A stretch of DNA of 64,000 nt from Candidatus Paceibacterota bacterium (GTDB lineage: Bacteria; Actinomycetota; Actinomycetes; Nanopelagicales; Nanopelagicaceae). Positions 49,295 to 55,821 of this stretch are shown here, piece by piece (position 1 is the stretch's first letter; each line of letters starts with the position of its first letter). The notes beneath the pieces were generated by a model, which was not told where the DNA came from, did not search any database, and saw nothing but the letters and a program-made list of their open reading frames with translations. The translations under genes were made by a program, and so were the position numbers. The stretch spans positions 248,001 through 312,000 of the forward strand of contig DATKUL010000003.1 of assembly GCA_035530615.1 (NCBI GenBank), read 5' to 3'.

Positions 49295-49396
49295 TTTACA
49301 GGTCCGATTCATCGATGGAGCATGTGGCAGAACTCATGCCAAGGTAGGCGGATGGGAATCCCTGCTGAAGCGTCGGTAAGAGAGTAACTTTTGGTC

Positions 49397-49975
49397 ATGA
49401 TTCGAAGTCGAAATGCGTTATTGGTGATCCTTATTTTCTGGATTGGCTTCCCGCTGCCCTCCGCCTTTGCACATGCGGGACTTGTCTCTTCCACTCCCAG
49501 CAACGGCGCCCACCTCACCGCACTGCCCTCTCATGTGAAACTTGAATTTGGAGAAAATCTTTTAACACTAGGTGATGCGCAGACCAATGTTCTAGTGGTC
49601 AAAGATCCTGATGGAGTTCAGGTTGATAAGTCGGATTCTTCAATCTCTGGGCGGTTTTTATCTGTGAGCCTTAATCCAAGTAGCAAGGACGGAACCTTTA
49701 GCGCAGACTGGCGAATTGTTTCTGAGGATGGCCATCCGGTGGAAGGCTCGTTTCAATTTTCAGTGACATCTTCGCCAACCGCGGCACCCGTGGTTAGCCC
49801 GACTCCTTCGCTATCTGCGACACCAGCCACAGCACCAGTAGTGACTTACGAGAAAGCTGGTTTTTGGAAGCAGTACCAACCACGAATTCTTCTTGGAACG
49901 CTCTTCATAATTGCGGTCATTATTTGGGTGAGATTCAAAATGAGGGGGAAAGCAGGACAGTCCGACGGATTGTGA
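49397..49975 (+). CDS. CopC-domain protein with C-terminal membrane anchor
   Basis: The 192-residue protein has a signal peptide ending in SAFA, after which the mature chain begins HAGLVSSTPSNGAHL. The N-terminal His is the classic CopC copper(II) ligand. The beta-sandwich ends with EDGHPVEGSFQFSV, which supplies a further His. A Pro/Thr/Ser-rich linker (about 115-145) and one membrane helix near 158-175 follow. The ATG at 49397 was chosen over a TTG two codons upstream. It should bind copper outside the cell; CopD is not fused or adjacent. Confidence 0.88.
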   Translation: MIRSRNALLVILIFWIGFPLPSAFAHAGLVSSTPSNGAHLTALPSHVKLEFGENLLTLGDAQTNVLVVKDPDGVQVDKSDSSISGRFLSVSLNPSSKDGTFSADWRIVSEDGHPVEGSFQFSVTSSPTAAPVVSPTPSLSATPATAPVVTYEKAGFWKQYQPRILLGTLFIIAVIIWVRFKMRGKAGQSDGL

Positions 49976-52173: not shown

Positions 52174-52189
52174 ATACCCCTGTGGGTAT
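52174..52189. promoter_or_regulatory. CsoR/CstR-type operator 1
   Basis: ATACCC-CTGT-GGGTAT is a perfect 6+6 palindrome with a four-base centre, 33 bases before the first repressor gene. The form matches the known operators of CsoR-superfamily repressors (runs of C and G flanked by AT). It is probably an autoregulatory site. Confidence 0.8.
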
Positions 52190-52222
52190 CATCTCCAACA
52201 CGCGAAAAGGAAGGGAGAGAGG

Positions 52223-52519
52223 ATGGTCAAGAAATCAGAGGAGGTTCTTTCCCGCACCCTCGAAAGTGAGGAGCAGTTAGCCGCCATCGCCAAGCGCTTG
52301 AAGCGAGCATACGGTCAAATGGGTGCGATTATTCGGATGCTCGAAGAAGGCCGCAGTTGTGAAGATGTTGTGACGCAAATGTCAGCTGTAGGCAAGGCGA
52401 TTAACACTGCTGCCATCACGCTCATTTCAGCAAGTTTGAAGGAATGTATTGAAAGTGAAGAAGCAGACACTGAGGTGATCATTGCAAGACTGCAGAAACT
52501 CTTTTTAAGTTTTGCCTAG
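52223..52519 (+). CDS. CsoR-superfamily repressor, CstR-like (Cys-Cys)
   Basis: The 98-residue all-helical DUF156 protein has the fold's KRLKRAYGQMGAIIRMLEEG. Copper-sensing CsoR proteins carry Cys, His 25 residues later and Cys four more on. Here the positions are Cys46, Ser71 and Cys75, so the His is lost but the cysteine spacing (29) equals that of the persulfide sensor CstR. It therefore more likely senses sulfane sulfur than copper. GGGAGAG precedes the ATG. It lies behind operator 1 and 82 nt before a paralogue. Confidence 0.88.
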   Translation: MVKKSEEVLSRTLESEEQLAAIAKRLKRAYGQMGAIIRMLEEGRSCEDVVTQMSAVGKAINTAAITLISASLKECIESEEADTEVIIARLQKLFLSFA

Positions 52520-52564
52520 TCATGAGTGGAACTGCTTAGTCGAACTTTTTGGGAACGGTCTTTA

Positions 52565-52587
52565 TTGACAGATACCCCTGGGGGTAT
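52565..52587 (+). promoter_or_regulatory. TTGACA box and CsoR/CstR-type operator 2
   Basis: A perfect TTGACA stands at 52565-52570, and ATACCCC-TG-GGGGTAT follows at 52572-52587, a perfect 16-bp palindrome. It begins one base after the -35 box and so would lie in the spacer under RNA polymerase. A -10 box is not obvious; TATGTT at 52585 is too near the -35. The site controls the second repressor, the rhodanese and the reductase. Confidence 0.8.
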
Positions 52588-52601
52588 GTTACGGTTCAGC
52601 C

Positions 52602-52913
52602 ATGAAGACGGTGAATCAGCAGAGAACGGCCGATGAGGTCCTTTCTGCACTCGTTCTCGATCCAGAACAGATTGCAGCAATCAGTAAACGTTTAAAGCGG
52701 GCCCACGGCCAACTCGGAGCGGTTGTTCGGATGCTCGATGAGGGTCGGACTTGCGAGGAGATCGTCACTCAAATGGCGGCGGTGGGCAAGGCGATCAACA
52801 CGGCGGCATTTACTCTCATCTCCGCAAACCTCACGGGGTGCTTGGTAGGCGAGAAGCCTAATTCTGCGGAGGTAACCGAAAAACTCCAAAAACTCTTCTT
52901 GAGTCTGGCCTAA
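52602..52913 (+). CDS. Second CsoR-superfamily repressor, CstR-like (Cys-Cys)
   Basis: This 103-residue paralogue of the preceding protein shares KRLKRAHGQLGAVVRMLDEG and VTQMAAVGKAINTAA. Cys51 and Cys80 are kept, and Asn76 takes the place of the copper-binding His, as remembered for CstR. It starts 14 bases after operator 2, without a good Shine-Dalgarno, and is nine bases before the rhodanese lipoprotein gene. Two repressors for one operon may form mixed tetramers or read different sulfur species; that is inference. Confidence 0.88.
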   Translation: MKTVNQQRTADEVLSALVLDPEQIAAISKRLKRAHGQLGAVVRMLDEGRTCEEIVTQMAAVGKAINTAAFTLISANLTGCLVGEKPNSAEVTEKLQKLFLSLA

Positions 52914-52946
52914 AACAAGGGAATGAACATGAGACAAGGAAACGAA

Positions 52947-53366
52947 ATGAAATTGAGACTGGGAATGAGAAAAAAGACACTTCGAAGCATCGCGGGATTG
53001 GCAACCGGTGTTTTAGTGTTGTCAGGATGCTCTTCAAGTTCAGGCAGTGTCACTTCCATGGATGTACAGAATTTCTCAAAGAAGACCCAAGAGACTGGAG
53101 TTATCACTTTGGACGTCCGTACTCGCGGTGAATTCAATCAAGGACACATTGCTGGTGCAATCAATATTGACGTTGAGTCGGACACTTTCCAAAATGAAGT
53201 GTCAAAGTTGGACAAGACAAAGACTTATGCGGTTTATTGCCAGAGCGGTCGTCGATCTGGAATCGCGACCGATGAAATGAAGAAGCTCGGCTTTGCACAT
53301 CTTTTCAATTTATCAAACGGTATGAATGACTGGATGTCACAAGGTATGCAACTGATGGTTTCTTAA
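52947..53366 (+). CDS. Rhodanese-domain lipoprotein
   Basis: A lipoprotein signal peptide (basic MKLRLGMRKK, hydrophobic core, lipobox LSGC) is followed by a Ser-rich spacer and one rhodanese domain. The active-site Cys is in VYCQSGRRSG, a six-residue loop typical of sulfurtransferases of the PspE type. ATGs at 52923, 52929 and 52947 are in frame; the last, behind AAGGA at six bases, gives the best signal peptide (139 residues). Sulfur transfer outside the membrane is expected. It overlaps the reductase ATG by one base. Confidence 0.9.
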   Translation: MKLRLGMRKKTLRSIAGLATGVLVLSGCSSSSGSVTSMDVQNFSKKTQETGVITLDVRTRGEFNQGHIAGAINIDVESDTFQNEVSKLDKTKTYAVYCQSGRRSGIATDEMKKLGFAHLFNLSNGMNDWMSQGMQLMVS

Positions 53367-55009
53367 TGAAAATTGTCATTGTCGGGGGAGTCGCTGGCGG
53401 AATGTCTGCCGCGACGCGTTTGCGGCGTCTGGATGTAGACGCAGAAATAATCGTGCTCGAAAAGAGTGGACACGTTTCGTACGCAAATTGCGGTCTGCCA
53501 TATTTTGTAGGCGGCGTGATTGAGGACGAATCCGCATTGTTCTTGCAGACTCCAGCATCCCTCCACGCACGTTTTAGATTGGATGTTCGCGTTCTCTCAG
53601 AAGCAATAAGCATTGATGCAGCCAGTAAAGCGGTTGAAGTGAGGGATCTCGTAACAAACGAGAAGTACTCACTTTCATATGACAAGTTGATTTTGAGTCC
53701 CGGAGCAACTCCGTTTGTTCCCAACATTCCTGGCGCCGAACTTGCCTACACATTGCGAACGGTCGAAGATGTTGAGCGAATCGTCGCTCTAGTAGCGAAA
53801 CGCCCACGTCATGCGGTCATTATCGGCGGCGGATTCATCGGAATCGAAGTTGCTGAAAACTTAATCCACCAAGGAATTTCGACATCTGTCGTGGAGGCCA
53901 TGCCCCAGGTTTTGGCTCCGCTTGACCCAGAAATGGCTACTTTCGTGGCTGATGAATTGATCCGGCACGGCGCGCAACTCTTTCTCGGCGACGGGGTCGC
54001 GGCCATCACCCCGGAATCGGTCACGCTTTCTAGTGGCGAGATATTGCCGAGCGATCTGACGATCATGGCGATCGGAGTTCGCCCCGATACAGCCCTTGCC
54101 AAGAGTGCTGGTCTAAAAATCGGCACTCGTGGCGGAGTAGATGTAAATGATTTTAATCAGACAAGTAATGAAGATATATATGCAGTCGGCGATGCCGCAG
54201 AGAAGAAGGATTCTCTTGATGGCAGCTCGACGTTGGTTCCACTTGCCAATATTGCCAATCGTCACGGACGCGTAGTGGCCGACCACATCAATGGTCGCGA
54301 TGTGCGAATGGTGCCAACCATCGGAACTGCGATTGTTAAAGTCTTTGACTTGATGATTGCGACGACTGGTTGGAACGAGAAGAGGCTGATTGCACAGAAG
54401 CGTGCATACCAGGCGATTCATACGCACCCTGCCTCGCATGCAGGTTATTACCCAGGTGCAAAACCTATGTCTCTCAAATTGCTGCTTGACCCAAAGACGG
54501 GGGAGATACTTGGTGCGCAGGGAGTTGGAACCGAGGGCGTTGACAAGCGAATCGACATTATTGCCACCGCCATACGTGGTGGCCTAACAGGACCACAATT
54601 GGCAGATCTTGAATTGGCATACGCTCCTCCATTTGGTTCGGCCAAGGACCCCGTGAATATGTTGGGATATGTCGCCGAAAATCTTCTCTCGGGTCTTGCG
54701 AAGAATGTTCAGTGGCACGAGGTGGAGAGTTACACCGAACGTGGATACGTATTGCTTGATGTGCGAACTCCTTCAGAGTTCAATCGAGGCACGATTGCCG
54801 GAGCCATCAATATTCCGGTGGATTCAATCCGCGAACGCTTGGGCGAGATCTCCCATAAGGATCTTGTCGTCCTTTGTCAGGTCGGCGTACGTGGTCATAC
54901 AGCCTCGCTACTTCTCAACGAGTTGGGATTCAACGCGGTCAATCTTGACGGGGGATACCAAACTTGGAGCCATTCTCCGGCGATGTACGCCGGCGAGTTA
55001 GTTAGGTAA
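53366..55009 (+). CDS. CoA-disulfide reductase-like flavoprotein with C-terminal rhodanese domain
   Basis: This 547-residue enzyme belongs to the CoADR-RHD (Npsr-like) family, which reduces CoA persulfides or polysulfides with NAD(P)H. The FAD motif GGVAGGMSAATRL is at the N-terminus and the single redox Cys42 is in YANCGLPYF. The NAD site is HAVIIGGGFIGIEVAENL near 152-169, and the second FAD motif is DIYAVGDAAE. The rhodanese domain (about 455-540) has its Cys504 in VLCQVGVRGHT. Following two CstR-like repressors and a rhodanese, it fits persulfide use or disposal. Confidence 0.94.
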   Translation: MKIVIVGGVAGGMSAATRLRRLDVDAEIIVLEKSGHVSYANCGLPYFVGGVIEDESALFLQTPASLHARFRLDVRVLSEAISIDAASKAVEVRDLVTNEKYSLSYDKLILSPGATPFVPNIPGAELAYTLRTVEDVERIVALVAKRPRHAVIIGGGFIGIEVAENLIHQGISTSVVEAMPQVLAPLDPEMATFVADELIRHGAQLFLGDGVAAITPESVTLSSGEILPSDLTIMAIGVRPDTALAKSAGLKIGTRGGVDVNDFNQTSNEDIYAVGDAAEKKDSLDGSSTLVPLANIANRHGRVVADHINGRDVRMVPTIGTAIVKVFDLMIATTGWNEKRLIAQKRAYQAIHTHPASHAGYYPGAKPMSLKLLLDPKTGEILGAQGVGTEGVDKRIDIIATAIRGGLTGPQLADLELAYAPPFGSAKDPVNMLGYVAENLLSGLAKNVQWHEVESYTERGYVLLDVRTPSEFNRGTIAGAINIPVDSIRERLGEISHKDLVVLCQVGVRGHTASLLLNELGFNAVNLDGGYQTWSHSPAMYAGELVR

Positions 55010-55014
55010 AGTAA

Positions 55015-55821
55015 TTGCCTCCTCAGGAGCGGGACCTCGAGAAGCGTTCAGAGCAAGAGAAGTGGGCGCAAGCGCTATCAGCGTGGGCAATTCCTCAAGA
55101 GATTATCGAGACTGCCAGCGAGAACCCTTGGATTCACCCACCTGCTCTCTTTCAGGTACCTGAGCGAATTGAAACTACCTTTTCACATGCATGTGCAGCA
55201 GAGGCGTTGCCTATTGGCGGTTCAGTTTTGGATGTTGGGTGTGGCGGAGGTATAGCCGCATTTGCGCTGTCCCCGGCCCATGTCATTGGCGTCGATCATC
55301 AGGGCGAAATGTTGGAGATGTTTGCTTCCAACGCGGCTTCCCGAGGAATCTCATCGGAAGTATTTGCAGGGTTCTGGCCCGCGATTGCGCAGCAGGTGCC
55401 GAAGGCCGATGTCGTAGTTTCACATCACGTGGCATACAACGTGCCAGATATTGCTCCTTTCTTGCAGGAATTGAATAACCACGCGAAAAACAGGGTGGTT
55501 ATTGAAATTCCGACTCATCACCCACTTACCAATATGTCTGCAGCATGGAAATACTTCTGGAATCTCGATCGGCCTAGTAGCCCGTCAGCGATGGACCTGG
55601 TCAATGTCCTCGCGGAGATCGGCATTAGAGCGCACGGGCAAATCTGGTCTGGACCGATGCGCGAGCCTGCTGACGTTGATCAGGAGAGTGAATTCCTAAG
55701 GATCCGACTCTGTTTGCCGCCAGAGCGCATAGAAGAAGTGAAGGACTTTCTTCGCGAGTATCCACTGCCGCGCCAACGCGAGTTAGCGACTATTTGGTGG
55801 GATGTGGCCGACGAGATTTGA
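55015..55821 (+). CDS. Class I SAM-dependent methyltransferase
   Basis: The 268-residue protein has motif I as GSVLDVGCGGGIAAFAL near residue 70 and the acidic end of strand 2 in VIGVDHQGEML. Strand 4 reads KADVVVSHHVAYNV. The start is TTG at 55015, five bases after the reductase stop; upstream AGGTAAAG is a weak ribosome site. The substrate is unknown. Its place right after the sulfur operon may mean co-transcription, but it need not act on sulfur compounds. Confidence 0.85.
   Translation: MPPQERDLEKRSEQEKWAQALSAWAIPQEIIETASENPWIHPPALFQVPERIETTFSHACAAEALPIGGSVLDVGCGGGIAAFALSPAHVIGVDHQGEMLEMFASNAASRGISSEVFAGFWPAIAQQVPKADVVVSHHVAYNVPDIAPFLQELNNHAKNRVVIEIPTHHPLTNMSAAWKYFWNLDRPSSPSAMDLVNVLAEIGIRAHGQIWSGPMREPADVDQESEFLRIRLCLPPERIEEVKDFLREYPLPRQRELATIWWDVADEI

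Follow-up and report, generated by a model that had tools for sequence, protein, structure and literature searches.

Positions 52174 to 55009 of a 64,000-nucleotide stretch of DNA (the window; contig DATKUL010000003.1, positions 248,001 to 312,000, of the Candidatus Paceibacterota bacterium assembly GCA_035530615.1, placed by GTDB in the Nanopelagicaceae) very probably stand at the start of a regulon for reactive sulfur (persulfide/polysulfide) of the CstR type, in which the sensor is duplicated. Two CsoR/DUF156-family repressor genes, here called cstR1 and cstR2, lie in tandem ahead of genes for a rhodanese-domain lipoprotein and a CoA-disulfide reductase (CoADR)-rhodanese fusion. The initial annotation had described these genes, with repressor cysteines 29 residues apart and Ser or Asn in place of His, and had taken reactive sulfur rather than copper to be the signal; the domain assignments, the lipobox, the sensor residues and the genome-wide evidence given below all agree with that description. 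The type of switch is already known, and it is the second sensor that is rare; what is new and most useful here is the evidence from operators across the genome, the pairing of Ser with Asn, and a family of mini-proteins.

Repressors and sensor residues

Both repressors match PF02583 (71.7 bits for CstR1 and 71.1 bits for CstR2, with a cut-off of 22.8), and they are the sole proteins of this family in the genome, which spans 2.16 Mb and is rated 100% complete. The two sequences are identical at 57 of 96 positions (59%). Each has its two cysteines 29 residues apart, and the residue four positions before the second cysteine is Ser in CstR1 and Asn in CstR2. In the PDB alignment, S71 of CstR1 falls on the His of the copper CsoR 4m1p, and the Cys-His-Cys Cu(I) site of copper CsoR proteins is absent from both repressors, which carry Ser or Asn at the His position. 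Among 107 distinct relatives in the tree set, the residue beside the thiols is Ser in 86, Asn in 19 and Gly in two, and in none is it His.

The top PDB match for both repressors is 7mq1, from which 7mq3 differs, in the aligned stretch, by replacement of the Asn beside the thiols with Ala. This Asn was reportedly described by Fakhoury et al. in 2021 as an 'Asn wedge' between the two thiols. A further entry, 7mq2, shares the sequence entry of 7mq1 and is described as CstR (PMC9774590). No Shine-Dalgarno sequence was seen upstream of cstR2, which may possibly be leaderless. At another locus, a CstR homologue that apparently lacks both sensing cysteines (L115:261-560, minus strand) is divergent from an intact CstR; its translation includes one undetermined residue, and either an assembly fault or a paralogue without sensor function could account for it.

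Operators, candidate promoters and the predicted regulon

The palindrome ATACCN6GGTAT, the published ScCsoR site in Streptomyces (PMC7533328), has four exact copies in the genome: operators 1 and 2 of the window (Table 1), C1:431815-431830 and C2:864401-864416. A stricter core, ATACCCN4GGGTAT, occurs three times in the genome, and the reversed pattern used as a control does not occur; two of these sites are in the window, where 200 first-order resamples of the window gave a mean of 0.0. Every one of the three core operators precedes sulfur-related genes. Two stand before cstR1 and cstR2, and the third, C1:431815-431830, stands before a metallo-beta-lactamase (MBL)-rhodanese gene (L101:3860-5266; a CstB-like persulfide dioxygenase-rhodanese) and a gene for a TauE exporter (141 bits). 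The product of the CstB-like gene scores 175 bits against PDB 3tp9 and 141.8 bits against 3r2u, S. aureus CstB. As read from sequence, the palindromes thus appear before genes of the rhodanese/CoA-persulfide reductase (CoAPR)/persulfide dioxygenase (PDO)/TauE set, the placement that would mark a CstR. A Phd/YefM-like antitoxin and PIN-domain pair (L101:2588-3372) adjoins the CstB-like operon.

The ATACC/GGTAT half-sites of the three core operators are identical, and their centres differ (CCTGTG, CCTGGG and CCAGGG). A -10-like hexamer, TATCAT (52187-52192), overlaps the right edge of operator 1, and an exact TTGACA sits one base ahead of operator 2, so that both operators may overlap promoters and repression may proceed by promoter blocking. 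Each repressor gene does have its own operator, as the initial annotation had stated, but the arrangement is better read as two promoter regions, P1 (cstR1) and P2 (cstR2 and the enzymes), than as two sites serving a single operon from one promoter. A scan for terminators called none between cstR1 and operator 2, and read-through from P1 is therefore possible. Elsewhere in the genome, two genes exceed the Cu-ATPase cut-off, and neither has an exact operator within 3 kb, the nearest one-mismatch site being 3.6 kb away; control of copper export genes by CstR1 or CstR2 is therefore unlikely.

The association between repressor and operator extends across the genus. A PF02583 gene and the operator core occur together in the same 18 of 21 genus genomes, and the remaining three (G019, G043 and G185) have neither; if the two were independent, a match of this kind would arise by chance once in 1330 (hand calculation). 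The core has 34 sites in the genus, compared with four for the reversed control, and all 18 CsoR-bearing genomes have one operator no more than 0.5 kb upstream of a CstR gene. Other genus operators precede thioredoxin genes (in G145, G031, G150, G503 and G070), small cysteine-rich proteins and an SQR-like flavoprotein whose family match is weak (48 bits, with a cut-off of 525). One operator (G031:C22) falls within a longer open reading frame (ORF) and is probably a chance occurrence. The labels on related loci read freshwater actinobacteria and, for some, Candidatus Nanopelagicaceae.

Sensing of sulfane sulfur, and not of copper, is supported by this pattern: there is no other CsoR-family protein in the genome, the operators stand before CstR, CstB-like and TauE genes and not near the Cu-ATPases, and gene and operator co-occur through the genus. 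Several observations weigh in the other direction. The fourth exact palindrome, C2:864401-864416, lacks the C/G core and precedes an unrelated helix-turn-helix/nucleotidyltransferase-like gene. A consensus promoter scan called neither the site at operator 1 nor that at operator 2. Operators of CsoR proteins resemble these, and the operator by itself therefore does not set the effector. No NCBIfam CstR model matched the repressors, which weakly match the RicR, FrmR and RcnR models, and the CoADR fusion scores 459 bits on TIGR03385 (the CoA-disulfide reductase equivalog), below the NCBIfam cut-off of 578.8.

Layout of the locus

The two operators, the two repressor genes and the rhodanese and CoADR genes lie within 52174-55009, the extent first assigned to the operon. 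The operon probably continues past 55009, since only 5 nt separate the CoADR stop codon from the start of a methyltransferase ORF (Table 1).

Table 1. Predicted genes and regulatory sites at the tandem cstR locus (positions in the window)
Feature	Position	Strand	Remarks
Operator 1, ATACCCCTGTGGGTAT	52174-52189	.	exact ATACCN6GGTAT
CstR1, CsoR/DUF156-family repressor, C46/S71/C75	52223-52519	+	98 aa; PF02583
TTGACA (52565-52570) then operator 2, ATACCCCTGGGGGTAT (52572-52587)	52565-52587	+	exact hexamer; exact ATACCN6GGTAT
CstR2, CsoR/DUF156-family repressor, C51/N76/C80	52602-52913	+	103 aa; PF02583
Rhodanese-domain lipoprotein, lipobox LSGC, active-site loop CQSGRR	52923-53366	+	PF00581, 69.1 bits
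CoA-disulfide/persulfide reductase with C-terminal rhodanese (CoADR-RHD / CoAPR-like)	53366-55009	+	Pyr_redox_2, Pyr_redox_dim and Rhodanese (Pfam)
Class I S-adenosylmethionine-dependent methyltransferase ORF, probable last operon gene	55015-55821	+	begins 5 nt past CoADR stop

The lipobox of the rhodanese is present in 73 of 75 related rhodaneses. In the PDB search, the CoADR fusion matches the E. faecalis CoA-persulfide reductase 8a56 over nearly its full length (532 bits) and 3icr with 573 bits. In 30 of 77 distinct loci, a homologue of the methyltransferase follows CoADR at a distance of at most 1.2 kb. The fold search returned generic class I methyltransferases only, and a substrate within sulfur metabolism is possible. 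In G031 and G150, the methyltransferase belongs to a separate unit with mini-proteins, under its own operator. An Rfam scan of the window gave zero matches. A CopC-domain gene (49391-49975) is located upstream, about 2.2 kb from operator 1, in a genome that by Pfam has no copper-type CsoR.

The tandem pair: rarity and origin

The usual arrangement in the family is one CstR ahead of a rhodanese and/or CoADR, and 16 of the 18 CsoR-bearing genus genomes have a single copy. Same-strand tandem pairs were found in two of 21 genus genomes, the present one and G145, and these are also the only two among the 74 CsoR-bearing genomes of a 201-genome order sample. Among 80 GTDB loci there is one tandem pair (L158, which is G145), together with a divergent pair (L115) and a pair 4 kb apart (L123). 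The earlier description of the layout as uncommon is thus borne out, with the limit that contig breaks in draft genomes could conceal further pairs. In the phylum set, 236 of 296 genomes have PF02583 among the matches listed. No description of tandem CstRs was found in the literature, as judged by titles and the beginnings of abstracts.

In G145, the order is operator, CstR1 (Ser), operator, thioredoxin, CstR2 (Asn), rhodanese, CoADR and methyltransferase. The thioredoxin gene between the two CstRs (L081, G145:C98, 6282-6650) has an operator overlapping its start codon, and operator-linked thioredoxin genes are also seen in L196, L198, L201 and L067. The CstR1 sequences of the two genomes share 70 of 98 residues (nonsynonymous divergence, dN, 0.21) and the CstR2 sequences 64 of 99 (dN 0.25). 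Both repressors look to be under purifying selection, since synonymous sites are saturated in both comparisons at these dN values. The tree groups the two CstR1 sequences as sisters (99/96) and, with less support, the two CstR2 sequences likewise (100/70); the tandem pair therefore most likely predates the split between the two genomes.

The tree placed the CstR1 pair with sequences labelled Acidimicrobiaceae and the CstR2 pair with the genus. Horizontal gain, which this placement suggested, is not claimed, because a single genus clade was not rejected (p-AU 0.634; clade test, 103 rows); the pair may have arisen either through duplication within the genus or through acquisition from outside it. 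The tree comprised 107 distinct rows, after removal of L079 (a duplicate), L046 (no cysteine pair by pattern), L047 (distant), L077 and L098 (truncated), the L115 ORF without a cysteine pair and repeated sequences; the clade test additionally left out L043, L050, L051 and L061 (long branches).

Alternative readings of the pair and its signal

Why there should be two repressors admits several explanations. Tentatively, and as a refinement compatible with the reactive-sulfur regulon, the pair may be a switch with two set points, in which CstR1 (Ser) and CstR2 (Asn) share operators but differ in their rate of reaction with sulfane sulfur or in their cross-linked products, alone or in a mixed tetramer, so that the regulon opens stepwise. 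Both copies are retained in two genomes that have diverged to saturated synonymous change (at the low dN values given above), each of the two genomes has Ser in CstR1 and Asn in CstR2, the operator half-sites are identical, and 7mq1 and 7mq3 differ by Asn to Ala at the same residue. However, Ser alone or Asn alone is usual in single-CstR genomes (the 86 and 19 rows of the 107 counted above), and neither residue is therefore needed for function.

It is doubtful that the second copy is a redundant duplicate, contributing dosage only and heading for loss. One CstR does suffice in most CsoR-bearing genus genomes, but both copies, both cysteines and the operators have been kept across the divergence between this genome and G145. 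A division of labour, with CstR1 acting mainly at its own promoter and the distant cstB-tauE unit and CstR2 at the enzyme operon through a slightly different DNA preference, seems less plausible still; it would fit the separate operator ahead of each repressor gene and the differing operator centres, but the flanking half-sites are identical, and the single-CstR genomes of the genus serve several operators with one CstR.

With regard to the signal, it is quite improbable that another thiol-reactive cue (nitroxyl, HOCl or electrophiles) is the main physiological one. Nitroxyl is also sensed by S. aureus CstR (PMC5480029), but the regulon here consists of sulfane-sulfur enzymes, and in the same study nitroxyl is said to work also via cellular reactive sulfur. 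A copper-sensing CsoR pair, for which the shared fold family and the CopC-domain gene upstream could be cited, is rejected as barely credible on the lack of the His ligand in both repressors, the sulfur enzymes that are their predicted targets, the operon's lack of a copper transporter and the absence of operators at the Cu-ATPase genes.

Cysteine-rich mini-proteins

The reactive-sulfur regulon appears to be accompanied by a family of very small proteins. In this genome, two mini-protein ORFs (G000:C1:431416-431583 and ~431639-431767 (-); L101:3417-3584; sequence MCSRTTCRKCGKPTWSGCGNH...) face in the opposite direction from the distant operator at C1:431815-431830. Members of the family have 37-62 residues and the pattern MC[S/H]xxxCxxCGKxTWxGCGxH...C, and M1, C2, C7, C10, W15, G17, C18, G19, H21 and C35 are invariant in 33 aligned sequences. 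A mini-protein ORF directly follows CoADR in 73 of the 97 loci with room for one (60 of 77 once duplicate CoADR DNA is removed), and elsewhere mini-proteins stand under their own operator. Five mini-proteins searched against Pfam and NCBIfam gave nothing above cut-off (weakest E-values 0.07 and worse), and one searched against the PDB gave no match. No account of small cysteine-rich proteins in persulfide operons was found in the literature, as judged by titles and the beginnings of abstracts.

Homologues are also found on actinobacterial plasmids in sulfur gene clusters, where the mini-protein gene is often unlisted. In a set of 10 of the 63 plasmid records with a homologue (five from the top 20, chosen for different genera, and five from an evenly spaced 12), a metal-sensitive transcriptional regulator lies within 5 kb in eight, and each of the 10 carries an MBL-fold, rhodanese or TauE gene, or more than one of these. 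Strict dependence on CstR was ruled out: a homologue is present in 88 of 101 family genomes, compared with 36 of 101 for a CsoR-family gene. None of 20 mini-protein loci from CstR-less genomes has an operator, and the neighbouring genes vary there. As a speculative and rather unlikely proposal, the mini-proteins could be a CstR-regulon family that carries, buffers or senses sulfane sulfur, with the Ser and Asn CstRs setting two release thresholds.

Proposed mechanism and comparison with known systems

By analogy with characterised CstR proteins (PMC5480029, PMC9405070, PMC9774590), CstR1 and CstR2 in their reduced form, each presumably tetrameric, would bind ATACCN6GGTAT and repress three units, namely P1 (cstR1), P2 (cstR2, rhodanese lipoprotein, CoAPR and methyltransferase) and the distant CstB-like/TauE promoter. 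Sulfane sulfur would attack the N-terminal Cys, which would then be cross-linked to the C-terminal Cys of the neighbouring subunit, and we infer that the cross-linked repressor would leave the DNA. The enzymes could then move, reduce and oxidise the excess, and once CoAPR, the rhodaneses, the CstB-like enzyme and TauE had cleared sulfane sulfur and its products, repression would resume. The Ser/Asn difference may give CstR1 and CstR2 different reactivity.

One close counterpart is the cst-like operon of Enterococcus faecalis, which consists of CstR, RhdA, RhdB and CoAPR (PMC9405070). Both systems combine CstR, a sulfurtransferase and a CoA-persulfide reductase-rhodanese fusion; here, however, there are two CstRs, an additional methyltransferase and a second unit with CstB-like and TauE genes, and in place of the two sulfurtransferases RhdA and RhdB there is one separate rhodanese, a lipoprotein. 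In the cst operon of S. aureus (tauE, cstA, cstB, sqr), a persulfide dioxygenase-sulfurtransferase and TauE are under the control of CstR (PMC5480029). A CstB-like gene and a TauE gene follow the shared operator in the present genome as well, but they are unlinked from cstR. Besides its CstR, S. aureus has a distinct CsoR that senses Cu, whereas the genome examined here has a second CstR and lacks a CsoR.

The four-gene ScCsoR-PDO-rhodanese-TauE circuit of Streptomyces coelicolor resembles the present one in having an actinobacterial CsoR-like repressor, ATACCn6GGTAT and sulfane-sulfur targets; it differs in having a single repressor and no CoAPR, and persulfidation is reported there on one Cys only (PMC7533328). 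The copper CsoR proteins of Mycobacterium and Geobacillus share the DUF156 fold, two cysteines and a similar GC-rich palindrome, but have the His ligand that is missing here, where the targets are sulfur genes.

Taken as a natural pair of persulfide sensors in one genome, with the same operator half-sites and a different residue beside the thiols, CstR1 and CstR2 make it possible to ask directly if the threshold of a sulfur switch depends on that residue. The locus also gives a lineage of freshwater actinobacteria a cleanly delimited regulon for sulfur detoxification, defined by bioinformatics, and it ties an uncharacterised family of tiny cysteine-rich proteins to sulfane-sulfur genes.

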